NCBI RefSeq assembly: GCF_013374995.1
Contig: NZ_CP056030.1
Location: forward strand, 3,814,501 to 3,878,500
Origin: Pseudomonas eucalypticola
Lineage (GTDB): Bacteria > Pseudomonadota > Gammaproteobacteria > Pseudomonadales > Pseudomonadaceae
Direction of reading: 5' to 3'
DNA length: 64,000 nucleotides
Positions 48,166-60,997 of the stretch are shown in pieces. The stretch's first letter is position 1. Each line of letters opens with the position of its first letter. Below the pieces are notes generated by a model that had not been told where the DNA came from, did not search any database, and saw nothing but the letters and a program-made list of their open reading frames with translations. The position numbers and the translations under genes are program-made.

Positions 48166-48999
48166 TCACGGCAGCGGGTCGAACTTCAGGTCGGCGAGGC
48201 TTTGCACCTTGTCTTCACGAACCATCTTGTAGGCAGTGTCCGGGCCGATCCAGCGGTTCCAGATGGCGTCGATCTCACCGGCCTGGTCCATGGCGCGCAG
48301 GGCTTCATTGACCTTGGCCAGGAAGGCGGGTTCGCCCTGGCGCATGCCAGCACCGATGGGTTCCAGGGCCATGGGTTCCTTGGCGATGGCCAGGTTCACC
48401 CCACCCTCCTTCGCCTGGCCCACCAGTTTGATGGCGGTCATGGTGTTGGTCACCAGCCCCACGACTTTGTTCTGCTGCAGGGCCATGTAGGCTGACCCGG
48501 TGTCCTGGAAGGTCACGGGTGTGGCATCGGCCAGGCGGATCGATTGCTCCGACGTCGAGCCCTTGGTGGAGCTGATTTTCTTGCCCTTGAAGAATTCACG
48601 CGGCTGGTCGGCGTTCGGCGCGCGCACCACCAGGGTTTCCTTGGCGATGTAGTACGGGTCGCTGAACTGGATCTGTTCGGCGCGGCTCTTGGTGTACGCC
48701 AGGTTGGCGAAGATCAGGTCCACGCGGCCCATCTTCACCTCCGGCACCCGGGCTTCCACCGACATCGGCTTGAGCTCCAGGGCCACACCCAGGTGCTTGG
48801 CCAGGGCAGTGCACAGGTCGACGTCCATGCCTACCAGTTCGCGGGTGGTCGGGTCGGGCGCCGAAAACGGTGGCACGTCGGCGTACACACCGCAGCTCAG
48901 GCTCTTCTTGGCCATCACGTCGCTCAGCTGGTCGGCGTGGGCCACCGCGATGGCCAGGGGCGCCAGGGCGATGGCGGTCAGCAATTTAGTCAGTGCCAT
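48166..48999 (-). CDS. Polar amino-acid ABC transporter binding protein
   Basis: The product is 277 residues of the family 3 binding proteins. It has a signal peptide (LLTAIALAPLAIAVAHA) and the typical PPFSAPDPTTRELVGMDVDLCTALAKHLG and DLIFANLAYTKSRAEQIQFSDPYY segments. It should bind a small polar amino acid or derivative. It is the last gene of an importer unit (two permeases, ATPase, binding protein). Placement next to the pxp genes suggests glutamate-like or 5-oxoproline substrates, which is inference. Confidence 0.92.
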   Translation of the reverse strand: MALTKLLTAIALAPLAIAVAHADQLSDVMAKKSLSCGVYADVPPFSAPDPTTRELVGMDVDLCTALAKHLGVALELKPMSVEARVPEVKMGRVDLIFANLAYTKSRAEQIQFSDPYYIAKETLVVRAPNADQPREFFKGKKISSTKGSTSEQSIRLADATPVTFQDTGSAYMALQQNKVVGLVTNTMTAIKLVGQAKEGGVNLAIAKEPMALEPIGAGMRQGEPAFLAKVNEALRAMDQAGEIDAIWNRWIGPDTAYKMVREDKVQSLADLKFDPLP

Positions 49000-49023: not shown

Positions 49024-49761
49024 TCAGTGGGCGCGCAGGTCGGCGATGAAGCGCTGCGCACGGGGATGGCTGGGTTGGCTGAAAAACTGTTCGGGGGCGG
49101 TCTTTTCCAGGATTTGCCCGGCGTCCATGAACCAGATGGTGTCTGCCACTTCGCGGGCAAAATTCATTTCGTGGGTCACGCACATCATGGTCATGCCCTC
49201 CTTGGCCAGGCCCTTCATCACGCTCAGCACTTCGCCGACCATTTCCGGGTCCAGGGCGCTGGTGGGTTCGTCGAAGAGCATCACCGGCGGCTCCATGGCC
49301 AGGGCACGGGCGATCGCCACCCGCTGCTGCTGGCCACCGGACAGCTGCGCCGGGTAGGCGTTGGCCTTGTGCGCCAGGCCCACGCGGTCCAGCAACTGCA
49401 AGGCCTGGGCCTTGGCGGCGCTGGCCTTGAGGCCGCGCACCTTGGTCGGGGTGAGGATGATGTTGTCCAGCACCGACAGGTGCGGGAACAGGTTGAAGCT
49501 CTGGAACACGAAGCCGACACGGCTGCGCAGGCGGTTGAGGTTGGCGTCGGTGCCGTTGACGTCCTGGCCGTCGAACAGGATCTGGCCTTTCTGGATGTCC
49601 TCCAGGCGGTTGACGGTGCGAATCAGCGTCGACTTGCCCGAGCCCGACGGCCCGCACAGCACCACCACTTCGCCGCGCTTGACCTCGGCGGTGATGTTGG
49701 TGAGTGCCTGATACTCGCCATACCATTTGTTGATGCTGGAAAACATGATCATCGGATGCAT
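49024..49761 (-). CDS. Polar amino-acid ABC transporter ATPase (GlnQ type)
   Basis: A 245-residue ATPase with Walker [20 protein letters not shown], signature [19 protein letters not shown] and Walker [21 protein letters not shown], followed by [21 protein letters not shown]. These are hallmarks of the GlnQ/HisP family. It energises the adjacent permeases. ATGs a few codons in (49752, 49746) are possible alternative starts. Confidence 0.94.
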
Positions 49762-49775
49762 GAAGGCAACCCTCT

Positions 49776-50519
49776 TCAGTTATCGGTGGTCAGCAGGGAA
49801 GCCTGCGGCGTCGCGGTGGCGGCACTGCCCAGGCGCTTGCGGGCGATGCGCCCTTCCAGCGCGCCGGCCAGGCGGGTCAGGCCGTAGCACAGGACGTAAT
49901 AGGTGATGGCCAGGATGAAGAACACCTGGAACGGCTTGGTCAACAACTGGTTGTTGACCTGGTTGGCGGCAAAGGTCACTTCCTGCACGTTGATCACGTA
50001 GCCCAGGGAGGTTTCCTTGATGATCGACACGAACTGGCTGATCAGGCTGGGCAGCGCGTTGTAAAGCGCCTGGGGCAGGATCACCCACAGCGTGGTGCGC
50101 ACATAGCCCAGGCCCAGGGCGCGGGCGCCTTCGTACTGGCCACCGGGCAAGGCCTGGATGCCGCCGCGGATGATCTCGCCCAGGTACGCGCTCTGGTACA
50201 CCACCAGGGTGCAGAGCATGGTGGTGAAGCCGGTGATGTTGTGGCCGATCAGCAAGGGCACCAGGAAGTAGGTCCAGAAGATCACCATCAGCAGCGGAAT
50301 ACCGCGCAATACGTAGACCCACACGGTGGCCGGGTAACGCAGCCAGCGCCAGGGCGATACCCTGGCCAGCGCCAGCAGCAGGCCCAGCGGGAATGCCAGT
50401 ACCAGGGCCGAGGCCGCCAGGATCAGCGTGCTGGCCAGGCCACCCAAGGGGCCGTGGGGGTATTGGCCGATGAGGAAAAGCGGCCAGTTGTCGTGGACAA
50501 TCTTGAACAAATCGAACAT
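49776..50519 (-). CDS. Polar amino-acid ABC transporter permease 2
   Basis: A 247-residue HisM/GlnP-type permease with about five membrane helices and the EAA loop [39 protein letters not shown]. It forms the channel with the other permease, whose gene ends 6 bases upstream of its start. Confidence 0.94.
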
Positions 50520-50525
50520 CGCGGC

Positions 50526-51227
50526 CTACCTCGCCAGGGCTTTGCTGAAGTGCCGAGCCACCAGGGCGCCAGCGCCCATCAGCATCAGCGAGAACGCCAG
50601 GTACACCACCGTGGCCACCAGGTATGACTCGAACGTGCGGAAGGTGTAGTTCTCCACTTCGCGGGTAGCGTAGGTCAGTTCCACCACGCCGATGGCCATG
50701 GCCAGGCTGGTGTTCTTGAACAGCAGCACGCTGTGGTTGATCAGCGACGGCAGGCAGTTCCTGACGCCCTGGGGCAGCACCACGTAGCGCAGCGAGCGCA
50801 CGTAGCCCAGGCCCAGGGCACGGGCCGCTTCGGCCTGGCCACCGGGAATGGCGCGCAGGCCGCTGCGAATGTCTTCGCTGAAATAAGCGGCCTGGCACAG
50901 GCCCAGGGCGATGATCGCGAACAGGTACTCGGTACTGAAATTAGCGAGCCACACCTGGGTGTTGTCGCTGAGCAGGGTCGGGATACCGAAGTACCACAGC
51001 ATCAGCTGCACCAGGGTGGGCACGTTGCGGTGGTAGGACACGTAGGCCGCCACCAGGCGCTCGGCGTAGCGGTTTCCAGTCAACCGGATGGCCACCAGCA
51101 ACAACGCCAGGACCATCGCCAGGCACCAGGCAAAGAGGGCCAGTTGCAGGGTCATGCCGATGCCCTTGAGGATCAGCTCGGTGTATTCGCCCTGAAAAAC
51201 GGCGGCAAGATCGAAGTCATGCTTCAT
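50526..51227 (-). CDS. Polar amino-acid ABC transporter permease 1
   Basis: A 233-residue HisQ/GltJ-type permease from ATG 51227. The EAA loop is [39 protein letters not shown]. It is the first transporter gene of the unit and lies 109 bases after the SDR gene on the same strand, so it may share the SDR's promoter. Confidence 0.93.
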   Translation of the reverse strand: MKHDFDLAAVFQGEYTELILKGIGMTLQLALFAWCLAMVLALLLVAIRLTGNRYAERLVAAYVSYHRNVPTLVQLMLWYFGIPTLLSDNTQVWLANFSTEYLFAIIALGLCQAAYFSEDIRSGLRAIPGGQAEAARALGLGYVRSLRYVVLPQGVRNCLPSLINHSVLLFKNTSLAMAIGVVELTYATREVENYTFRTFESYLVATVVYLAFSLMLMGAGALVARHFSKALAR

Positions 51228-51336: not shown

Positions 51337-52089
51337 TCAGGCCTGGTAGTCCTGGGGGCGCGCGGTGGACAGGCCGCCCGGCACCTGCAGGGTGGGAGTG
51401 ATCTCCATATGGCCGACGTTCATCGACACCGGCGCGGCAATGGCGAAAGCAATGGCGTTGGCAATGTCCTTGGCTTCGGGCAATTCGAAGCCTTCGATGA
51501 AGCGTTGGCGTACTTCTTCGGAGTCGCCGTGCACGTGGGCGAAAATGTCGGTGGCCACGCGGCCAGGGCAGATTTCGGTCACCCGCACACGCCTGCCGAA
51601 CGCGTCCACGCGCAGTTGCTTGGAGAGCATGCTCACCGCCGCCTTGGTAGCGTGGTAGGTGGCGTTGCCGCCGAAGTTGTAGGCGGCAGCGATGGAGCTG
51701 ATGTTGATGATATGGCCGCTGTCGCGCTCGACCATGCCTGGCAGCGCCAGGCGTGCCAGGTGCAGCACCGCGCGCAGGTTGACGTCCACCAGCAGGTCGA
51801 TGCCCTCGGCGTCGGCCTTAAGCAGCGAACCCGGACGGTCGACACCGGCGTTGTTGACCAGGATGTCGAAGCGCTGGCGCTGGAACAGCGCGGTCAGCCC
51901 GGCCAGGTCAGTGACGTCGATGGCGTGGGCGATGCAGCCCGTGCGTTCGGCAAGCTCCGCCAGCTTGTCGGCGCTGCGGGCCAGGGCGTGTACCTGCAAG
52001 CCTTCGGCGCACAGGCGCTCGACCACGGCGGCGCCGATGCCGGAGGAAGCGCCGGTGACCAGCGCGGTTTTATAGTCGGAGAATGGCAT
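51337..52089 (-). CDS. SDR-family oxidoreductase (YdfG-like)
   Basis: The product is 250 residues from ATG 52089 (GAGGAACACAGC upstream). Motifs are TGASSGIG, DVTDLAG, NNAGVDRPG, ISSIAAAYNFGG and the catalytic YHATKAAVSML. It resembles NADP-dependent 3-hydroxy-acid dehydrogenases such as YdfG. It lies between the importer and pxpA. A Nac-type site (52172-52186) is 83 bases upstream of its start. Confidence 0.9.
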   Translation of the reverse strand: MPFSDYKTALVTGASSGIGAAVVERLCAEGLQVHALARSADKLAELAERTGCIAHAIDVTDLAGLTALFQRQRFDILVNNAGVDRPGSLLKADAEGIDLLVDVNLRAVLHLARLALPGMVERDSGHIINISSIAAAYNFGGNATYHATKAAVSMLSKQLRVDAFGRRVRVTEICPGRVATDIFAHVHGDSEEVRQRFIEGFELPEAKDIANAIAFAIAAPVSMNVGHMEITPTLQVPGGLSTARPQDYQA

Positions 52090-52171: not shown

Positions 52172-52186
52172 ATAAGGTGCGCTTAT
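52172..52186 (-). promoter_or_regulatory. Candidate Nac-binding site upstream of SDR/ABC unit
   Basis: ATAAGGTGCGCTTAT fits the ATA-N9-TAT form and has perfect ATAAG/CTTAT arms. It overlaps the pxpA stop codon and lies in front of the SDR and transporter genes. Related elements are at 56872, 58032 and 58137. Confidence 0.55.
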
Positions 52187-52953
52187 GACCGCACCAGTTG
52201 GCTGACAGGGGTGATGACGGCGCCCTGCCCTTCGATGAATGAGCGCAATTGGCGCGCCAGTTGCACTGCGCCCGGCGTGTCGCCGTGCAGCAGGATGGAA
52301 CAGGCATTGACCTTGACCGCTTCGCCGTCGAGCGTGGTGACAGTGCCGTGTTGCAGCAGTTGCGCCACCCGCTGGCGCACCTGGGCCGGGTCCTTGATGA
52401 CCGCGCCGGGGGTACCCCGCGGCACCAGCAGGCAGTTGCGGTCGTAGGCACGGTCGGCCAGGAAGGTGGTGGCCACGCGCAGCCCATGCTGGTCGGCGGC
52501 GGCCTCGATGGCCTGGCTGCTGGACGAACTGATGATCAGGCTCGGGTCGAACCTGGCCACCGCCCCCACCAGCACCTCGGCCATGTGCGGGTCGGCGGCC
52601 ACGCGGTTGCCCAGGGCGCCGTGGAAGCTCATGTGGGTCATGGGGTGGCCGACCACGGCGGCCATGCCGGCCAGGGCACCCAACTGGTAGACCACGCAGG
52701 CGGCCAGCTCGGGCAGGTCGATGTTCATGGCGCGGCGGCCAAAGCCTTGCAGGTCGGGGTAGCCGACATGGGCCCCCAGGTCGATACCCAGGGCCTTGGC
52801 CCGACGCACGGTGGTGTCCATGATCAGCGGGTCGCCGGCGTGAAAACCGCAGGCCACGTTGGCAGAGGAAACGATCTCCATCAGCGCCTGGTCTTCGCCC
52901 ATGGTCCAGGGCCCGAAGCCTTCGCCAAGGTCTGCATTCAAATCGATACGCAT
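52183..52953 (-). CDS. pxpA: 5-oxoprolinase subunit A (LamB/YcsF family)
   Basis: A 256-residue protein that opens with the family signature MRIDLNADLGEGFGPWTMG and continues with EIVSSANVACGFHAGDPLIM, GAHVGYPDLQGFGRR and TTFLADRAYDRNCLLVPRG. PxpA acts with PxpB and PxpC in ATP-dependent hydrolysis of 5-oxoproline to glutamate. It is the last gene of the acc-pxp operon; the gap to the carrier-like gene is 11 bases. Confidence 0.94.
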   Translation of the reverse strand: MRIDLNADLGEGFGPWTMGEDQALMEIVSSANVACGFHAGDPLIMDTTVRRAKALGIDLGAHVGYPDLQGFGRRAMNIDLPELAACVVYQLGALAGMAAVVGHPMTHMSFHGALGNRVAADPHMAEVLVGAVARFDPSLIISSSSSQAIEAAADQHGLRVATTFLADRAYDRNCLLVPRGTPGAVIKDPAQVRQRVAQLLQHGTVTTLDGEAVKVNACSILLHGDTPGAVQLARQLRSFIEGQGAVITPVSQLVRS

Positions 52954-52964
52954 GGTATGCCTCC

Positions 52965-53369
52965 TCAGTTGACCAGCTCGAACAGCGGCTGGCCATAGCC
53001 CACGGGTTCACCTTCACCGGCACGCAAGGCGCTCACCTGCCCGGCCCGGTCGCTGCGCACCGGCAGCATCAATTGGCCGATCTGCAGCACGCCCAGCAGT
53101 TGCCCGGCCTGCACCCGGTCGCCCACCTGGACCCAGGGCTTGCGCTCGTCCGGGTGCTGGCTGAAAAAGTGCCCCGGCCCGCTGGCGTTCACCGTGGCCA
53201 CGGGTTCCGCTGCCTGCACCACCTGGGCCACAGGGACCGGCGCTGGCAACGGCGCCTTGGCCGAACCGCGCCGGATCATCAGCTCGAAACCGCTGCGCTG
53301 AATGTGCAGTGCAGTGAGGTTGGCGGCGCTGAGCCAGGTGACCAGTTGGCGAATATCCTTGATGTTCAT
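52965..53369 (-). CDS. Biotin-carrier-like protein lacking the biotinyl lysine
   Basis: The product is 134 residues. An AccB-like N-terminal helix (MNIKDIRQLVTWLSAANLTALHIQ) is followed by a proline-rich linker and a barrel domain (WVQVGDRVQAGQLLGVL ... YGQPLFELVN). The segment that should read EAMKM reads QIGQL, so the biotin-accepting Lys is Gln (codon CAA). It lies between pxpC and pxpA. It cannot be biotinylated at the normal site. It may be a structural or docking subunit, or a decayed copy of the intact AccB encoded at 56359. Confidence 0.88.
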   Translation of the reverse strand: MNIKDIRQLVTWLSAANLTALHIQRSGFELMIRRGSAKAPLPAPVPVAQVVQAAEPVATVNASGPGHFFSQHPDERKPWVQVGDRVQAGQLLGVLQIGQLMLPVRSDRAGQVSALRAGEGEPVGYGQPLFELVN

Positions 53370-53380
53370 GGCGGCGCTCC

Positions 53381-54340
53381 TCAAAGGGTGTGCAAGGTCA
53401 GCAGGCGCCGGGTGGCGTCGAGGAAAGCCCGGTTCGCCTCCAGCGCGTCCAGGGCCTGTTCGTAGCTGCAAGGAATGAACCGCACGTGGCTGCCAATGGG
53501 CGCCTGACCCAGCCGCCAGAGGTCGGCCTCGATCACCGTGGCGAATTTCGGATAGCCGCCGCTGGGTTGGGCGTCGCGCATCTGGATGATCGGCTGGCCG
53601 CCGTGGGGCACCTGGATCACGCCGGGCACGATGCCGTGGGAGCGGATTTCCAGTGGCTGCTTCGGCAACAGGGGCTCGCCTTCCAGGCGGTAGCCGTAGC
53701 GGTTGCTCTGGGTGGTTATTTTCCACTGCCCGGCCCAGAACGCGGCTTGCGAAGCCTCGCTGAAACAGTCGTATTCGGCTGCCGGCAATACACGCATGGC
53801 GGGTACGCCGTCCACCTCCAGGGGCAAGGCCCGGGCCGCCAGGCCGACGCCGAAATCGGTAGCCCCCGCCAAGCCCGGGCGGCCGGCTGGCAGACGGTCG
53901 CCCTGCTGCAGCATACGCCCCTGCCAGCCACCGAACTCCCCGCGCAACTGGGTGCTGCGCGAGCCGAGCACCTGGGGTACGTCGACACCGCCGGCCAGGC
54001 ACAGGTACGCGCGGCTGCCCGCCGCTGGGTAATTCAACTTCAACACCTGGCCGGCTTGCGCCTGTGCCACCCAGTTGGGCGGCAGCGCCTGGCCATCCAG
54101 GGTCGCGCCGCATGCGGCACCGGTGACGGCGAAGGCACAGTCTTCAAGGAAGCGCACCTGGAAAGGGAACAGCGGAATCTCGATGGCGGCGTCGCCCTCG
54201 GCGTTGCCCAGCAACAGGTTGCCGAGCATCAACGACAGGTTGTCCATGGCCCCGGACGTGCCGACACCGTAGCCCAGGCTGCCATGGCGACCCAGGTCCT
54301 GGACGGTGGCCAGGGCGGTGGCGCTGATGATCTCGATCAT
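53381..54340 (-). CDS. pxpC: 5-oxoprolinase subunit C (KipA/carboxyltransferase-like)
   Basis: A 319-residue KipA-family protein (TVQDLGRHGSLGYGVGTSGAMDNLSLMLGNLLLGN, YLCLAGGVDVPQVLGSRSTQ, VRFIPCSYEQALDA). The same fold forms half of the carboxyltransferase domain of urea amidolyase. With PxpA and PxpB it hydrolyses 5-oxoproline. Its start overlaps the pxpB stop by 4 bases. The biotin genes in the operon make the carboxyltransferase relation relevant. Confidence 0.93.
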   Translation of the reverse strand: MIEIISATALATVQDLGRHGSLGYGVGTSGAMDNLSLMLGNLLLGNAEGDAAIEIPLFPFQVRFLEDCAFAVTGAACGATLDGQALPPNWVAQAQAGQVLKLNYPAAGSRAYLCLAGGVDVPQVLGSRSTQLRGEFGGWQGRMLQQGDRLPAGRPGLAGATDFGVGLAARALPLEVDGVPAMRVLPAAEYDCFSEASQAAFWAGQWKITTQSNRYGYRLEGEPLLPKQPLEIRSHGIVPGVIQVPHGGQPIIQMRDAQPSGGYPKFATVIEADLWRLGQAPIGSHVRFIPCSYEQALDALEANRAFLDATRRLLTLHTL

Positions 54341-55008
54341 CGAATGATCCTCTCGATACGCAGGCGAATATGGTCACCCGGCTGCAGCAGCGCGGGGGGC
54401 GATTGCAGGGCGTCGAAGAACACCATGTCGGTGTGGCCGATGGTGTTCCAGCCGCTGGGGCCTGCCGAGGCCGATACACCGGTTTGGACGCCGCCGATGG
54501 AAACGGCACCGGCGCCGATGTTCAGCACCGGTACCTGGCGCCGGGGGGTGGCCAGCCGCGGGTCCATGCCGCCCAGGTAGCAGTAACCCGGGTGACTGCC
54601 CAGGGCGTACACCGGGTACAGCGGTTCGCAGTGCAGGTTGCAGAGGGTTTCCACGTCGAGCCCGGTGTGGGCGACGACGTCGGCCATGTGGGGGCCGAAT
54701 TCGCCGCCGTAGGTCACCGGCAGTTCGACGATGCGGCCTTCCAGGGGTAGCGGCTGGCAGGCTTCCCACGCCTCCAGCAGGTGGCTCTTGAGGCCATGCA
54801 GGTCGCGCGGGGGTTGGTGGAACGTCAGCATCAGGTTGTTCATGCCCGGCACGGCTTCGCGTATCGCCGGCCAGCCCTGGGCGAGACGGGCCAGGGCCCA
54901 GATCCGTTGCTGTGGCGCCAGGTCCAGCGCCCCCGGGGCTTCGAACAGCACGGCGGTGGTGCCCAGCAGGCTGATGCGCGGGGTGGCGTCGATGTTCAGG
55001 GCACTCAT
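54337..55008 (-). CDS. pxpB: 5-oxoprolinase subunit B (KipI-like)
   Basis: A 223-residue KipI-family protein with [21 protein letters not shown] and [26 protein letters not shown], and [19 protein letters not shown] near the end. It corresponds to the other half of the urea-amidolyase carboxyltransferase fold. Both its start and its stop overlap neighbours by 4 bases (accC and pxpC), so all three are translationally coupled. Confidence 0.93.
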
Positions 55009-56357
55009 GCTGAAGTCCTCGTGTGCAGCCAGCGTTCAAGGTGGTGGATGTCGACGCCGCCTTCGCGGAAACCCGGGTCCTGGAGGATGTCCAGGTGCAA
55101 GGCGATATTGGTGCTGATGCCTTCCACGCGCATCTCGCCCAAGGCCAGCCGCATCCGCGCCAGGGCCTCTTCACGGGTGGCGCCGTGGGTGATCACCTTC
55201 GCCACCATGGAGTCGTAGTACGGCGGTACGCGGTAGCCATGGCTGACGTGGCTGTCGACCCGCACCCCGTAGCCGCCGGGCACTTCCCAGCGGCTGACGA
55301 CGCCGGGGGTGGGCATGAAGCTGGCCGGGTCTTCGGCGTTGATGCGGCATTCCAGGGCGTGGCCGTGAACGCCGATGTCGGCCTGGCTCAGGCTCAGCCG
55401 CTCGCCACGCGCCATGCGAATCTGTTGCTGAACGATGTCGATGCCCGTGGTCATTTCGGTGACCGGGTGTTCCACCTGCAGGCGGGTGTTCATTTCGATG
55501 AAATAGAAGGCGTCGTGCTCGAACAGAAATTCGAACGTACCCACCCCGACGTAGCCTATCTGCCGGCAGGCGGCGGCGCAGCGTTCGCCCACCTGGGCCA
55601 GTAGTGCCGGGGCGATGCCGGGGGCGGGTGCCTCCTCCATGACTTTCTGGTGCCGGCGTTGCAGCGAGCAGTCGCGCGCCCCCAGCCACAGGGCATTGCC
55701 GTGGGCATCGCAGAGCACCTGGATTTCCACGTGGCGCGGCTCGCCGAGGAATTTCTCGATGTACAGCTCCGGGTTGCCGAAAGCGCGCCGAGCTTCTTCG
55801 CGGGTCAGGTTGATGGCGTCGAGCAGCTGGCTCTGCTGCTCCACCACGCGCATGCCGCGCCCACCGCCACCGCCGGCGGCCTTGACGATCACCGGGTAAC
55901 CGATGTCGTGGGCGATGGCCAGGATGGTCTCGGGGTCTTCAGGCATGCTGGTGTCGGGACCCGGCACGCAGGGCACCCCGGCCTCGCGCATGGCGCGCTT
56001 GGCAGCCACCTTGTCGCCCATGGTGCGAATGCAGGCGGCGCTGGGGCCGATGAAGGTCAGGCCAGCCTGAGCCACGCGCTCGGCGAAAGCGGCATTTTCC
56101 GAGAGGAAACCGTAGCCAGGGTGAATGGCCTGGGCGCCGCTCACTTCGGCGGCGAACAGCAGCGCAGCCTGGTTCAGGTAGCTCTGCCCGGGGGCGGCCG
56201 GGCCGATGCACACGGCCTGGTCGGCCAGTTGCACGTAGCGGGCCTCGCGGTCGGCCTCCGAGTACACGGCCACGGTCCTGAGACCCAGGCCCTGGCACGC
56301 GCGCAGAATGCGCAGGGCGATTTCGCCGCGGTTGGCGATCAATACAGTGTCGAACAT
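55005..56357 (-). CDS. accC: Biotin carboxylase subunit
   Basis: This is 450 residues from ATG 56357 ([23 protein letters not shown]). It shows the biotin-carboxylase ATP-grasp features [35 protein letters not shown] and the active-site [22 protein letters not shown]. It carboxylates biotin on AccB using ATP and bicarbonate. It is the second gene of accB-accC-pxpB-pxpC-carrier-pxpA and is likely dedicated to this system and not to fatty-acid synthesis, whose accBC pair is normally elsewhere. Confidence 0.93.
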
Positions 56358-56358
56358 G

Positions 56359-56781
56359 TCACGCCTCCCCCAGCTGAAAAACGGCTTGGCCGGCCGCGAC
56401 TTCCTCGCCGCTGGCGGCAAGCACCGCCAGCACGGTGCCGGCCCGTTCGGCCTTGAGCGGGTGGAACATCTTCATGGCTTCCACCACGGCCAGGGTCTGG
56501 CCGGCTTCCACTGGGTCGCCCACTTGCACGAATACCGGCTGGTCGGGGGCGGGAGTCAGGTGCAGCACGCCATACAGGGCCGCGCAGGCTTCGAAGCCCG
56601 CGGCAGGTGCCGCCTGGGGGGCGACAGGGCTGGGCGCTACCTGCGGCGCGGCGGCGACAACAGGCGCCGCCGCACCCTCGCGCAGCAGGCGCAAATGGGT
56701 ATCGCCTTCGTTGAGGCTCAGTTCGCTGAGGTCTGAGGCGGCCATCAGGTCGATCAGCGCTTTGATGCGTTCCGGGTTCAT
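56359..56781 (-). CDS. accB: Biotin carboxyl carrier protein, intact
   Basis: The product is 140 residues from ATG 56781. An N-terminal helix ([20 protein letters not shown]), an Ala/Pro-rich linker and a biotinyl domain with the correct [10 protein letters not shown] motif follow. The Lys in AMKM carries biotin. It is the first gene of the acc-pxp operon, 1 base before accC. A Nac-type site lies 91 bases upstream. Confidence 0.93.
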
Positions 56782-56871: not shown

Positions 56872-56886
56872 ATAAGCGGCCCTTAT
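56872..56886 (-). promoter_or_regulatory. Candidate Nac-binding site upstream of the acc-pxp operon
   Basis: ATAAGCGGCCCTTAT fits ATA-N9-TAT with perfect ATAAG/CTTAT arms. It lies 91 bases before the accB start and overlaps the nac stop codon. Position fits activation of accB-pxpA. Confidence 0.6.
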
Positions 56887-57800
56887 GACTGCGCAGACAC
56901 CAGATTGCCGCGCATGTCGGCAATCAGTTCCAGCAGGATGGCCTTGACCGCCTGGGCCGGTACCGACAGCGGCAAATGCCCGGAGAGGCACAGGGCCAGG
57001 GGCGCCTCGATGTCCGGCTGGGTGATGCGGCACAGGTGTGCATCGTGCACCGCCACCAGGGCGCGGGCGGCGGACTCCGGGAGGATGGTGGAGCCGAAGT
57101 GTTCACTGACGGCCGCCGCTAGGGTGGTGGACGACTCCACCTCGGCGATCACCCGGGCACTGAGGCCGAGCTTCAGGAAGGCTTCGTCCACCAGGCGGCG
57201 CATGGTGTTGTAGGTACGCGGCAGCAGCAAGTCGAGGTCCGCCACCTCGGCCAGGCTGATGTCATCCCGGGCGTGCAGTTCGGGGTCGGCGCTGACCAGG
57301 TACAACTGCTCGCGCATCAACGGCACGAAGCTCAGGCCATGCACTTCACGGCCGCCGTACAGCACGGCCATGTCCATGCGCCCGTTCATGATCAGTTCGC
57401 TGAGGGTGGTGCCGAAGTTTTCGTTGAGGTACAGCAGAATGCCGGGGTGGCGCTCACGCACCCGGCGTAGCAGCGGCAGCGACAATGCGGAAGCGGCCGT
57501 GCCGGGCGCCAGGCCCACGGAGACCTGGCCGGACAAGGCGAAGCCGGTGGCATTCACATCGCTCTGGGCCTGTTCGCACTGGCGCAGAATCAACTGCGCG
57601 TGGCCGTAGAGCACCTTGCCGGCCTCGGTGGGGGTGACGCCGCGCTTGGTGCGGATAATCAATTGCTGTTGCAGCTCGGCTTCCAGGGTCACCAATTGCT
57701 GGCTGAGGGCTGGCTGGGCAATGTGCAGCACATCGGCGGCCTGGGTCAGGCTGCCGACATCGACGATCTTCACGAAGTACTTCAAACGGCGCAGGTTCAC
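56883..57800 (-). CDS. nac: Nac-like LysR-type nitrogen regulator
   Basis: The GTG at 57800 gives 305 residues and a start (NLRRLKYFVKIVDVGSLTQA) that lines up with Klebsiella Nac, also 305 residues. A GTG four codons upstream is possible. The helix-turn-helix (ADVLHIAQPALSQQLVTLE), RTKRGVTPTEAGKVLYGHA and GQVSVGLAPGTAASALSLPLL are strikingly Nac-like. Nac activates sigma-70 nitrogen-assimilation operons under nitrogen limitation without a coinducer. This gene is preceded by a sigma-54 promoter, as nac is in Klebsiella. It sits between the pxp operon and the aminotransferase, both of which carry Nac-type sites. Confidence 0.85.
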   Translation of the reverse strand: MNLRRLKYFVKIVDVGSLTQAADVLHIAQPALSQQLVTLEAELQQQLIIRTKRGVTPTEAGKVLYGHAQLILRQCEQAQSDVNATGFALSGQVSVGLAPGTAASALSLPLLRRVRERHPGILLYLNENFGTTLSELIMNGRMDMAVLYGGREVHGLSFVPLMREQLYLVSADPELHARDDISLAEVADLDLLLPRTYNTMRRLVDEAFLKLGLSARVIAEVESSTTLAAAVSEHFGSTILPESAARALVAVHDAHLCRITQPDIEAPLALCLSGHLPLSVPAQAVKAILLELIADMRGNLVSAQS

Positions 57801-57838
57801 TGGACAACACACTCGGGCAAGGTGGATGAGTCCTTTAG

Positions 57839-58136: not shown

Positions 58137-58151
58137 ATAAGCTGTGCCTAT
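58137..58151 (+). promoter_or_regulatory. Candidate Nac-binding site (aminotransferase proximal)
   Basis: ATAAGCTGTGCCTAT fits ATA-N9-TAT and lies 85 bases before the aminotransferase GTG. It is 105 bases, about ten helical turns, from the site at 58032. Confidence 0.6.
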
Positions 58152-58236
58152 CAAACCAGAACAAACTTGTCTTATCAGCGGAACCGCCGTGCCTCGTAAC
58201 GTAGCCGTCATCAGGCCACCACCCGAGGAAAACCCC

Positions 58237-59445
58237 GTGACCGTTTCCCGCATCGCCGCCCGTGTGCACCGCATCAAACCCTCGCCCAGCAGCGCCGCCG
58301 CCGACCGTGCCAACGAACTGCGCCGCGCCGGCCACTCGATCATCAACCTGGTGGTGGGCGAGCCAGACTTCGACACCCCAAGCCACATCCGCCAAGCCGC
58401 CTGCGCCGCCATCGAAGCCGGCCATACCCGCTACACCCAGAACGCCGGTACCCCTGAGCTGCGCCAAGCCATCGTCGACAAGCTCAAGCGCGAGAACGGC
58501 CTGGATTACACCCCGGCGCAGATCGTGGTCACCAACGGCGCCAAGAGCGCGATCTACAACGCCTTCTCCGCCACCCTGGGGGCCGGCGACGAAGTGCTGA
58601 TCCCCGCGCCCTACTGGGTGTCCTACCCGGACATGGTGCTGGCCTGCGAAGGCGAACCCGTGACCCTGGCCTGCGACGAAGACCACCACTTCAAGCTCAC
58701 CGCCGACCAATTGCGCGCCGCCATCACCCCACGCACCCGCTGGCTGCTGCTGAACTCCCCCAGCAACCCGACCGGCGCCGTATACCACGCCGACGAACTG
58801 CGCGCCTTGGCCGATGTATTGCTGGACTACCCCGACGTGCTGGTGATGACCGATGACATCTACGAGCACATCCGTTACGACGACCGCCCCGCCACCCATA
58901 TCCTGGCCGTGGAGCCGGCGCTCAAGGACCGTGTGCTGGTGATCAATGGCGTGTCCAAGTCCTACGCCATGACTGGCTGGCGCATCGGCTATGGCGCCGG
59001 CCCTGCCGACCTGATCACCGCCATGGCCACCTTGCAGTCGCAATCCACCAGCAACGCCTGCAGCGTCAGCCAGGCCGCCGCCGTGGCGGCCCTGACCGGC
59101 GACCAGGCGTTCATCGCGCAAAGCCGCGCCGTGTACCGCCAGCGCCGCGACCGTTGCCTGGCATTGATCAACGCCATCGAAGGCTTGAGCTGCCTGCCGC
59201 CGGAGGGCGCTTTCTACCTGTACGTCAACTGCGCCGGCGTACTGGGCAAGCGCACCCCGCAAGGCCAGGTGCTGGAAAGCGACAGCGACTTCATTCTGTA
59301 CCTGCTGGAAAGCCAGGGCGTGGCGGTGATCCCGGGCAGTGCCTATGGCCTGGCGCCGTTCTTCCGCATGTCCACGGCCTCGGCCATCGAGACCCTGGAA
59401 ACCGGCTGCCAGCGCATCGCCGCCGCCGTCGCGGCGCTGGTGTAA
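58237..59445 (+). CDS. PLP-dependent class I aminotransferase (aspartate type)
   Basis: The product is 402 residues from the GTG at 58237, which has GAGGAA 7 bases upstream; the frame before it carries no family sequence. It is a fold-type I aminotransferase: VVGEPDFDTPSHIR, YTQNAGTPELRQAI, LNSPSNPTGAVYHADEL, MTDDIYEHIRYDD and the Schiff-base Lys in INGVSKSYAMTGWRIGYGAG. The final FRMSTASAIETLE contains the substrate-carboxylate Arg. It probably uses aspartate, or another amino acid, with 2-oxoglutarate. It begins an apparent unit with an MFS exporter and an OprD porin. Confidence 0.9.
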   Translation: MTVSRIAARVHRIKPSPSSAAADRANELRRAGHSIINLVVGEPDFDTPSHIRQAACAAIEAGHTRYTQNAGTPELRQAIVDKLKRENGLDYTPAQIVVTNGAKSAIYNAFSATLGAGDEVLIPAPYWVSYPDMVLACEGEPVTLACDEDHHFKLTADQLRAAITPRTRWLLLNSPSNPTGAVYHADELRALADVLLDYPDVLVMTDDIYEHIRYDDRPATHILAVEPALKDRVLVINGVSKSYAMTGWRIGYGAGPADLITAMATLQSQSTSNACSVSQAAAVAALTGDQAFIAQSRAVYRQRRDRCLALINAIEGLSCLPPEGAFYLYVNCAGVLGKRTPQGQVLESDSDFILYLLESQGVAVIPGSAYGLAPFFRMSTASAIETLETGCQRIAAAVAALV

Positions 59446-59455
59446 GGGGTTGACG

Positions 59456-60997
59456 ATGACGCTGCCGAGCCCCCCGGCCCTGAGCTTCAAACAGGCCCTG
59501 CTGGCCATGCTCGGCCTGTCCCTGGTGTTGATGCTGTCAGCCCTGGACCAGACGGTGATCGGCAATGCGTTGCCAAGCATTGTCGCCCAACTGCAAGGGT
59601 TCGAGCTGTATGCCTGGGTGGCCACCGGCTACTTGCTGGCGTCCATCGTCACCATCCCGATCTTCGGCCGCCTGGGTGATTACTTCGGCCGCAAGCCCTT
59701 CGTGCTCGCGGCCACCGTGGTGTTCACACTGGCTTCGCTGGTGTGCGCGCTGGCCCCCAGCATACCAGTGCTGGTACTGGGCCGGGGCCTGCAGGGCGTG
59801 GGCGGCGGCATGCTGATCGGCACGGCGTTCGCGTGCATTCCCGAACTGTTTCCCGACACCCGCCAGCGCCTGCGCTGGCAGATACTGCTCAGCGCCCTGT
59901 TCAGCGTGGTCAATGCCCTGGGCCCAGGCCTGGGGGGCTACCTGACAGAGGCGTTCGGCTGGCGTTCGGTGTTCTACATCAACTTGCCCCTGGGCGTGCT
60001 CGCGCTGTTCTTCGCCTGGCGCTACCTGCCCTGGTATCGGCCGCTGCGCCGGGGGGCCATTCGCCTGGACTGGCTGGGCGCGCTGCTGATTGCCGTGGTG
60101 CTGGGCAGCCTGCAACTGTGGGTGGAGTGGTTGGGGCAGTCGTCCACCACCGCCAGTGCCGCGCTGGGCGGTCTGTGCCTGGTGGCGCTGCTTGCCTTGG
60201 TCGGATGGGAGCGGCGCTGCCCGCACGCCTTGTTGCCCGCCGCCCTGTTCAAGGCCGGCAGCGTGCGCCAGTTGTTCGTGTTGTCGCTGCTGGCCGGGGC
60301 GATCATGTTCACCCTGCTGTTCTACTTGCCCCTGCTGCTGCAAGGCAGCTACGGCTATTCCCCCCAGGACGCCGGACTGCTGATTACTCCGCTGGCCCTG
60401 AGCATCACCCTGGGGGCGATCGTCAACGGCCGCGTCATCACCCACCTGCGCAACCCCAACCGCGTGCCCCTGGCCGGCTTCGCCGTGTTGGCACTGGCCT
60501 GCCTGGGCTTGTGGTGGGCAGGTCTGGGCGCGTCGTTCCACCGCCTGCTGGGCTTGATCCTGCTGGCGGGGTTGGGCCTCGGGTTCATCCTGATGAACCT
60601 CACGGTGTTCACCCAGACCCTGGCCGCCCGCGAGTTCCTGGGCATCGCCACGGCCCTCACCCAGTCGCTGCGCCTGGTGGGTGGTTTGCTGGGCACCGCG
60701 GTGATGGGCGCACTGGTCAAACTGCTGTACGTCGTGCACCTGCGCCACGCCTTCGACGCCATCGACCAGGGCGCCGCACTGGCACCCTACCTTGACCCGC
60801 AGGTGCTGCTGCAACCTGGCTCCGCTCACGACAACGGCGCCCTGCTGGCCCTGGCCCGCCAAGCCCTGGCCCAGGGCCTGGGCACCGGCCTGCTGCTGTG
60901 TGCGGCGCTGGCCGCGGTGGCCCTGTGGGTATTGATGCGATTACCGCCGGTGGCGCTGAGCCGCGCCCCGGCCCCGGTTGCTCCTGAAGAACAATAA
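59456..60997 (+). CDS. MFS transporter, DHA2 type (14 membrane segments)
   Basis: A 513-residue transporter from ATG 59456, behind AAGGGG. Features are SALDQTVIGNALPSIVAQLQG (motif D1), PIFGRLGDYFGRKPFVLAATVVF (motif A) and GRGLQGVGGGMLIGTAFACIPELF (motif C of drug/proton antiporters). The length predicts 14 helices, as in EmrB. It should export a small molecule by proton antiport. It starts 10 bases after the aminotransferase, so they are likely co-transcribed. Confidence 0.92.
   Translation: MTLPSPPALSFKQALLAMLGLSLVLMLSALDQTVIGNALPSIVAQLQGFELYAWVATGYLLASIVTIPIFGRLGDYFGRKPFVLAATVVFTLASLVCALAPSIPVLVLGRGLQGVGGGMLIGTAFACIPELFPDTRQRLRWQILLSALFSVVNALGPGLGGYLTEAFGWRSVFYINLPLGVLALFFAWRYLPWYRPLRRGAIRLDWLGALLIAVVLGSLQLWVEWLGQSSTTASAALGGLCLVALLALVGWERRCPHALLPAALFKAGSVRQLFVLSLLAGAIMFTLLFYLPLLLQGSYGYSPQDAGLLITPLALSITLGAIVNGRVITHLRNPNRVPLAGFAVLALACLGLWWAGLGASFHRLLGLILLAGLGLGFILMNLTVFTQTLAAREFLGIATALTQSLRLVGGLLGTAVMGALVKLLYVVHLRHAFDAIDQGAALAPYLDPQVLLQPGSAHDNGALLALARQALAQGLGTGLLLCAALAAVALWVLMRLPPVALSRAPAPVAPEEQ

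Follow-up and report, generated by a model that had tools for sequence, protein, structure and literature searches.

A locus of Pseudomonas eucalypticola raises the question of why genes of the three 5-oxoprolinase families (pxpA, pxpB, and pxpC) share one operon with genes for a biotin carboxylase (BC) and two carrier-like proteins. The operon, accB-accC-pxpB-pxpC-(carrier-like)-pxpA, lies in a stretch of 64,000 nucleotides of the contig NZ_CP056030.1 (positions 3,814,501 to 3,878,500; hereafter the window). A previous reading of this DNA from its letters (the sequence-only reading) had taken the gene set to suggest a biotin-dependent carboxylation of 5-oxoproline or a related lactam. In this work, we confirmed that the operon belongs to a conserved, catabolic cluster of biotin carboxylase and putative lactam-opening genes that is larger than first described. 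We consider the chance slightly better than even (about 0.55) that the operon encodes a split, biotin-dependent lactam or amide carboxylase, similar to urea carboxylase and joined to a PxpA hydrolase. The earlier interpretation is partly supported overall, and the carboxylation itself is what we infer. Our searches found no paper on a biotin-dependent PxpABC and no described function for this conserved catabolic cluster.

Operon Structure and Protein Families

The sequence-only reading described the six genes as one tight operon, which was borne out. All lie on the minus strand at 52183-56781 as a single operon, are intact with no internal stops, and start with ATG; the intergenic gaps in the order from accB to pxpA are 1, -4, -4, 11, and 11 bases.

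56359..56781, minus strand: accB-like biotin carrier, 140 aa, with the biotin-accepting lysine motif EAMKM
55005..56357, minus strand: accC-like biotin carboxylase, 450 aa, 63% identical to the housekeeping AccC; both have ECRINAEDP
54337..55008, minus strand: pxpB, 223 aa, CT_C_D, KipI/YbgJ-like, with arginine replacing the general-base lysine of urea carboxylase
53381..54340, minus strand: pxpC, 319 aa, CT_A_B
52965..53369, minus strand: pseudo-carrier, 134 aa, with the fold of a biotin carboxyl carrier protein (BCCP) and the biotin lysine lost (VLQIGQLMLPV)
52183..52953, minus strand: pxpA, 256 aa, LamB/YcsF, with MSFHGALGN where VKPHGALYN is expected

The Pfam domains in the same order are Biotin_lipoyl; the N, ATP, and C domains of BC; CT_C_D; CT_A_B; Biotin_lipoyl; and LamB_YcsF, and the NCBIfam models agree with Pfam on the families. 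Scores exceeded the cut-offs for PxpB (TIGR00370, 178.7 vs. 145.6), PxpC (TIGR00724, 322 vs. 230), and PxpA (NF003814, 325 vs. 226; LamB/YcsF Pfam E-value of 3.6e-90), and the equivalog model for PxpC (NF045499) was not reached, with 326.9 bits vs. a cut-off of 500. Among the acetyl-CoA carboxylase models, AccC scored 674 vs. a cut-off of 626.5, AccB 87.4 vs. 115.2, and the pseudo-carrier 64 vs. 115.2; no carboxyltransferase (CT) domain of the AccA/AccD type was found in the six operon proteins. The model for urea carboxylase, a single chain of ~1200 aa (TIGR02712; cut-off of 1303.9), listed AccC (488 bits), PxpC (175), AccB (35), and the pseudo-carrier (15), with PxpB unlisted. PxpC has the fold of the CT domain of urea carboxylase, in agreement with the earlier claim that it is related in fold to the carboxyltransferase of a biotin enzyme.

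The 6.4 Mb genome contains four BC genes. The housekeeping accC is located at C1:693.8 kb with accB in front, such that the accBC of the window are not the sole copies, a possibility that the sequence-only reading had named as one that would count against it and that we rejected. A second, canonical-looking pxpA-pxpB-pxpC run was found at C1:2510133-2512536 (~2.51 Mb; L009:6134-8537), with no acc-like matches in the 14 kb examined around it, and the two PxpA proteins of this genome are 39% identical to each other. Because housekeeping accBC and a biotin-free pxpABC exist elsewhere in the genome, the biotin-linked operon is an additional set beside them. A eukaryote-type 5-oxoprolinase was rejected as an alternative in this genome, since no Hydantoinase_B match was found in it.

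Association of Biotin Carboxylase With PxpBC

We searched 249 Pseudomonadota genomes for PF02626 (PxpC-like), which was present in 83. The 34 matches in open frames of more than 1000 aa were treated as urea carboxylases (18 of them fetched), and one partial match at a contig end (G004) was omitted. The resulting sample comprises 80 loci, namely, 78 fetched stand-alone or fused PxpC loci and the two of this genome. Counting BC as nearby when it falls inside the fetched stretch (~7 kb either side), we found it in 20 of the 80 loci. The binomial probability of this pairing is 5e-21 if each locus has a chance of p = 0.012, our estimate from four BC genes per 6.4 Mb of genome, and rises to 2e-13 if p = 0.03 (computed with n = 79); the pairing exceeds chance.

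The BC-linked loci were sorted into three types by gene order. Type I, as in the window, has accB and accC as separate genes (L011, L017, L044, and L054). Type II has a small carrier, accC, pxpB, and pxpC (L018, L019, L022, L025, and L028); no pseudo-carrier was seen in these five loci, one of which (L022) ends at a contig end before the carrier. Type III (11 loci: L032, L039, L040, L047, L048, L050-L052, L056, L062, and L069) combines PxpB-PxpC, fused except in L040, with a BC that has its own carrier domain and with pxpA. A carrier with the MK motif is present in 19 of the 20 BC-linked loci, the exception being the truncated L022. In one further locus, L020, PxpBC resembles that of type II and has the lysine of urea carboxylase; pxpA is present, and BC is absent within the fetched ~7 kb either side. 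The type III proteins of L052 and L056 have estimated masses of about 61, 57, and 27 kDa; the classical 5-oxoprolinase of P. putida is described as component A of 64 + 51 kDa and component B of 82 kDa (PMC8453981).

In a PxpC tree of 113 rows, built by a quick method with support from the Shimodaira-Hasegawa-like approximate likelihood ratio test, the urea carboxylases form one clade (support of 100), with type II plus L020 as the sister group (93). Type III is a single clade (100), and type I without L044 falls in a clade of 19 rows (98) nested in one of 27 rows (98) that includes biotin-free PxpC of other genomes. BC adjoins PxpBC in three separate branches. BC linkage changes seven times on this tree excluding the urea carboxylases and eight times when these are counted as linked, a count that does not separate gains from losses; the deep order is unsure because of long branches.

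We used a type I PxpC profile to collect 80 named loci, the best 80 of 555 confirmed relatives, and the fractions from this set describe type I rather than all PxpC. These loci were found in Pseudomonas, Variovorax, Burkholderia kin, Rhizobiales, Acetobacteraceae, and others. Among them, BC (>100 bits) is present in 70, a carrier with the lysine in 72, and a second carrier without it in 78; 69 loci combine the three, and BC is likewise missing from the two loci that have no such second carrier. The biotin genes remain linked to pxpBC in loci whose names place them in the alpha-, beta-, and gammaproteobacteria, which supports the earlier view that they are dedicated to this cluster. Within Pseudomonas, the cluster is accessory (PxpC of at least 75% identity in nine of 119 genomes).

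Loss of the Biotin Lysine in the Second Carrier

At the biotin site, accB of the window encodes EAMKM, and the second carrier has VLQIGQLM at the same place, with the lysine gone. Judged by its residues, this protein cannot hold biotin. The two proteins proposed earlier as biotin-carrier-like are both so by fold, and the biotin-accepting lysine is found only in accB. The fold of the pseudo-carrier is of the AccB type over the whole barrel (77 residues, root-mean-square deviation of 0.9 against E. coli BCCP in its BC complex).

Across the type I loci, we counted lysines by operon place, as sorting the 78 carriers by their lysine column ("0 of 78") would be circular. Among 150 carrier domains, those directly before accC have the lysine in 69 of 69 cases, and those between pxpC and pxpA (42) or between accC and pxpB (26) in 0 of 68; two carriers of one kind never occur within one type I locus. 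The lysine carriers keep E-[AV]-M-K in 72 of 72 cases. The pseudo-carriers have a motif of their own, in which, of 78 proteins, 65 have glycine ahead of the site and 72 have proline at the fourth position after it; VMKL in the pseudo-carrier of L135 is off-site, and the lysine is absent at the aligned biotin column. They form one group in the carrier tree and are present in all 70 type I loci that have BC. A decaying duplicate is disfavored by the single tree group, the distinct motif, and the presence in 78 of 80 loci, although the protein evolves faster than those of neighboring genes. Most likely, the pseudo-carrier is a fixed structural or docking subunit of a putative AccC-AccB-PxpBC complex.

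Flanking Genes and Candidate Substrate

The operon is flanked by genes for transport, regulation, and amino-acid-like metabolism.

48166..48999, minus strand: substrate-binding protein of a polar amino-acid ATP-binding cassette (ABC) transporter; the nearest model is Lys/Arg/Orn-binding, below its cut-off
49024..49761, minus strand: ATPase of the polar amino-acid ABC transporter
49776..50519, minus strand: polar amino-acid ABC permease B
50526..51227, minus strand: polar amino-acid ABC permease A
51337..52089, minus strand: short-chain dehydrogenase/reductase (SDR) oxidoreductase, 250 aa, 93 bases downstream of pxpA
56883..57812, minus strand: LysR regulator upstream of the operon, above the cut-off of the model for NAC (nitrogen assimilation regulator)
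58144..59445, plus strand: aspartate-type aminotransferase on the strand opposite to the operon, PRK06107 above cut-off

Within the 80 fetched type I loci, these neighbors recur: SDR in 70, NAC-like LysR in 68, aminotransferase in 67, each permease in 64, and ATPase in 62. The cluster seems to let the cell take up and use a nitrogen source resembling an amino acid. The earlier proposal of 5-oxoproline or a related lactam as the substrate may hold in its wider form: 5-oxoproline is possible, and a related amino-acid-like lactam or amide appears more likely, given that the genome has another pxpABC and that the SDR, aminotransferase, and transporter are conserved. An EmrB-like gene for a major facilitator superfamily efflux protein (window 59456-60997) adjoins the aminotransferase gene, and a relative is found near 10 of the 80 type I loci (seven in Pseudomonas).

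Proposed Reaction and Evidence Against It

Beyond the observed gene content, conservation, folds, and lysine loss, we infer a complex, a carboxylation, an order of steps, and a substrate. AccC would carboxylate the biotin on AccB using ATP and bicarbonate, PxpB-PxpC would move the carboxyl group to the ring nitrogen (or oxygen) of a lactam or other amide, and PxpA would hydrolyze the activated amide with release of CO2. The ATP would be spent via carboxybiotin, replacing a phosphorylated lactam, and the pseudo-carrier would have its structural or docking role within the complex of AccC, AccB, and PxpBC. The ABC transporter, the SDR, and the aminotransferase, under the NAC-like regulator, would handle the amino-acid-like nitrogen source.

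Several observations weigh against this reaction. A lysine at the CT site has been proposed as the general base in urea carboxylase (PMC5770610), and we found it in 18 of 18 urea carboxylases. At this site, the type I PxpB has arginine in 82 of 82 rows (two of them from this genome), as do 59 of the 60 loci without BC. The possibility that PxpB of the window has the catalytic lysine was rejected; among the PxpB proteins, the lysine occurs only in type II and L020. Because the general-base lysine is arginine in this PxpB, the carboxyl-transfer step is not readable by homology. Moreover, the PxpC closest to type I from outside type I mostly belong to BC-free loci, and ATP-dependent phosphorylation by PxpBC is assumed for PxpABC elsewhere (PMC13274462); the relevant text of this 2026 paper offers the use of ATP by PxpBC as an assumption only. 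The pseudo-carrier is also less constrained than its neighbors: the ratio of nonsynonymous to synonymous differences (pN/pS) reaches 0.92 in one of 8 close pairs and is 0.66-0.78 when the window is compared with eight relatives from Pseudomonas.

Eight of the 80 type I loci have a pseudo-carrier but no BC of >100 bits (L128, L146, L153, L171, L178, L140, L160, and L170). The first five vary in having a lysine carrier, and L146 is located at a contig end. What L128 keeps of BC next to pxpBC and pxpA is only a fragment scoring 54 bits, and its carrier match is very weak. A further point against the proposed reaction is that L140 (Rouxiella), L160 (a metagenome-assembled genome titled Enterobacterales), and L170 (Pantoea), together with L029, which is of the same class as the window, keep pxpA, pxpB, pxpC, and the pseudo-carrier without a dedicated BC or lysine carrier. 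Each of these four genomes has just three BCs, one as long as AccC (interrupted in the G366 assembly) and two as long as urea carboxylase; among stand-alone carriers, a single AccB-like protein (41-45%) exceeds 40% identity to AccB. The rest of the system looks unchanged because the serine-type PxpA is kept in all four. AccBC may be borrowed in these loci, or biotin may be dispensable.

The canonical PxpA motif is VKPHGALYN; among 53 BC-free loci, its lysine is kept in 52 (L029, itself type I, is the exception). The window has MSFHGALGN, lacking the lysine, and the type I set has Ser in 69, Gly in 5, and Lys in 5 of 79 rows, one of the Lys rows being the canonical PxpA of this genome. A general association between the loss of this lysine and BC was rejected, since 17 of 19 BC-linked PxpA in the Pseudomonadota sample keep it and since it is also lost in L029 and in six type I loci without BC of >100 bits.

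Alternative Explanations

PxpABC might by itself be an ordinary ATP-driven 5-oxoprolinase, with accB and accC as duplicated acetyl-CoA carboxylase parts for fatty-acid supply. PxpA and PxpB do score above the 5-oxoprolinase models and AccC above the acetyl-CoA carboxylase cut-off, the four related loci manage without acc genes, and the PxpB arginine is that of the BC-free loci. However, the housekeeping accBC sits elsewhere, both carriers fall below the BCCP cut-off, BC accompanies pxpBC in a quarter of the sampled loci (20/80), in three branches, and in 70 of 80 type I relatives, and a homologous PxpBC pair is bound to a BC complex according to the title of PDB 9YX5, which makes this explanation quite unlikely. 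The loss of the VKPHGALYN lysine from most type I PxpA may instead indicate a different substrate or intermediate. The biotin carboxylase could then act on a non-lactam (urea, guanidine, or an open-chain amide), with PxpA opening or deacylating the product as allophanate hydrolase does after urea carboxylase. The fold and subunit set are those of urea carboxylase, and the transporter and enzymes suggest a particular amino-acid-like compound; still, PxpA is clearly a LamB/YcsF protein (E-value of 3.6e-90), a family whose known role is 5-oxoproline opening, and no amidase was noticed among the identified cluster genes, though no search aimed at amidases was made. We regard a non-lactam substrate as unlikely.

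The pseudo-carrier might instead displace AccB and act as a competitive brake or sensor, a role once suggested for plant BADC. This would suit a protein with the AccB-type fold across the full barrel and no lysine, and one that is retained in loci without a dedicated BC. It is improbable given that the protein occurs in all 70 BC-containing loci with a conserved motif of its own, and for BADC itself, PMC11926652 favors an assembly role and notes the inhibition proposal of others.

The split lactam or amide carboxylase remains our preferred reading. As a tentative extension that we hold to be possible but doubtful, biotin N-carboxylation could be a general bacterial means of lactam opening, with PxpBC as carboxyltransferases in types I, II, and III; type I would add an obligatory non-biotinylated docking carrier, which could also dock the housekeeping AccBC where a dedicated one is absent. 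If so, type I would represent a new catabolic route for an amino-acid-like lactam in soil- and plant-associated bacteria. Carboxylation of lactams by PxpBC would be a new reaction for biotin carboxylases beyond CoA esters, pyruvate, and urea. It would also give ATP-driven amide opening a second chemistry and predict a nitrogen source of many soil and plant bacteria.

Comparison With Known Systems

Urea carboxylase of Kluyveromyces lactis (PDB 3VA7 and 5I8I) has the same parts, namely, BC, BCCP, and a CT of CT_A_B + CT_C_D, which are separate genes in the operon, and the operon enzyme would likewise spend ATP through carboxybiotin. It differs in that the operon enzyme is split into chains, has a LamB/YcsF partner instead of allophanate hydrolase and an extra pseudo-carrier, and carries arginine in PxpB in place of the general-base lysine (KlUA K1605). 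Such split genes were described in 2011 as unstudied (PMC3199775, section 8). PxpABC (E. coli YbgJ/YbgK/YbgL and B. subtilis) belongs to the same three families, with PxpC 46% identical to YbgK in a structural alignment; unlike it, the operon adds a biotin carboxylase, a carrier, and a pseudo-carrier, and VKPHGALYN of PxpA is changed to MSFHGALGN.

In P. aeruginosa, we take PA0492, PA0495, and PA0496 to be pxpA, pxpB, and pxpC, and by gene set PA0493-PA0496 is presumably type II, in five loci of which (one at a contig end) the pseudo-carrier was not seen. Like the operon, PA0493-PA0496 contains a second biotin carboxylase and an AccB-like gene, and its precise function is stated to be unknown (PMC6249292). 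Caprolactamase CapAB of Pseudomonas jessenii also opens a lactam with ATP and needs bicarbonate, and a carboxylated intermediate has been considered (PMC8453981); it belongs to the hydantoinase/oxoprolinase family, which is reported there as dissimilar to PxpABC and whose Hydantoinase_B domain is unmatched in this genome.

A parallel among deposited structures is MSMEG_0435-0436 of M. smegmatis on the long-chain acyl-CoA carboxylase (PDB 9YX5, title and sequences only; no paper naming the complex was found), which joins PxpC/PxpB homologues to the BC-BCCP protein AccA3. Its nearest rows are of type III, whereas the operon of the window is type I. AccA3 also serves acyl-CoA carboxylase, and M. 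smegmatis seems to borrow it for these PxpBC homologues. The pseudo-carrier resembles the plant BADC proteins of plastid acetyl-CoA carboxylase; these are related to BCCP, lack the biotin motif, occur together with BC and BCCP, and are called unique to the plant enzyme (PMC11926652). The resemblance is an analogy only. The pseudo-carrier is bacterial, is located in a PxpBC-type operon, and forms one tree group, and it makes the role of biotin-less carriers testable in simple bacteria.

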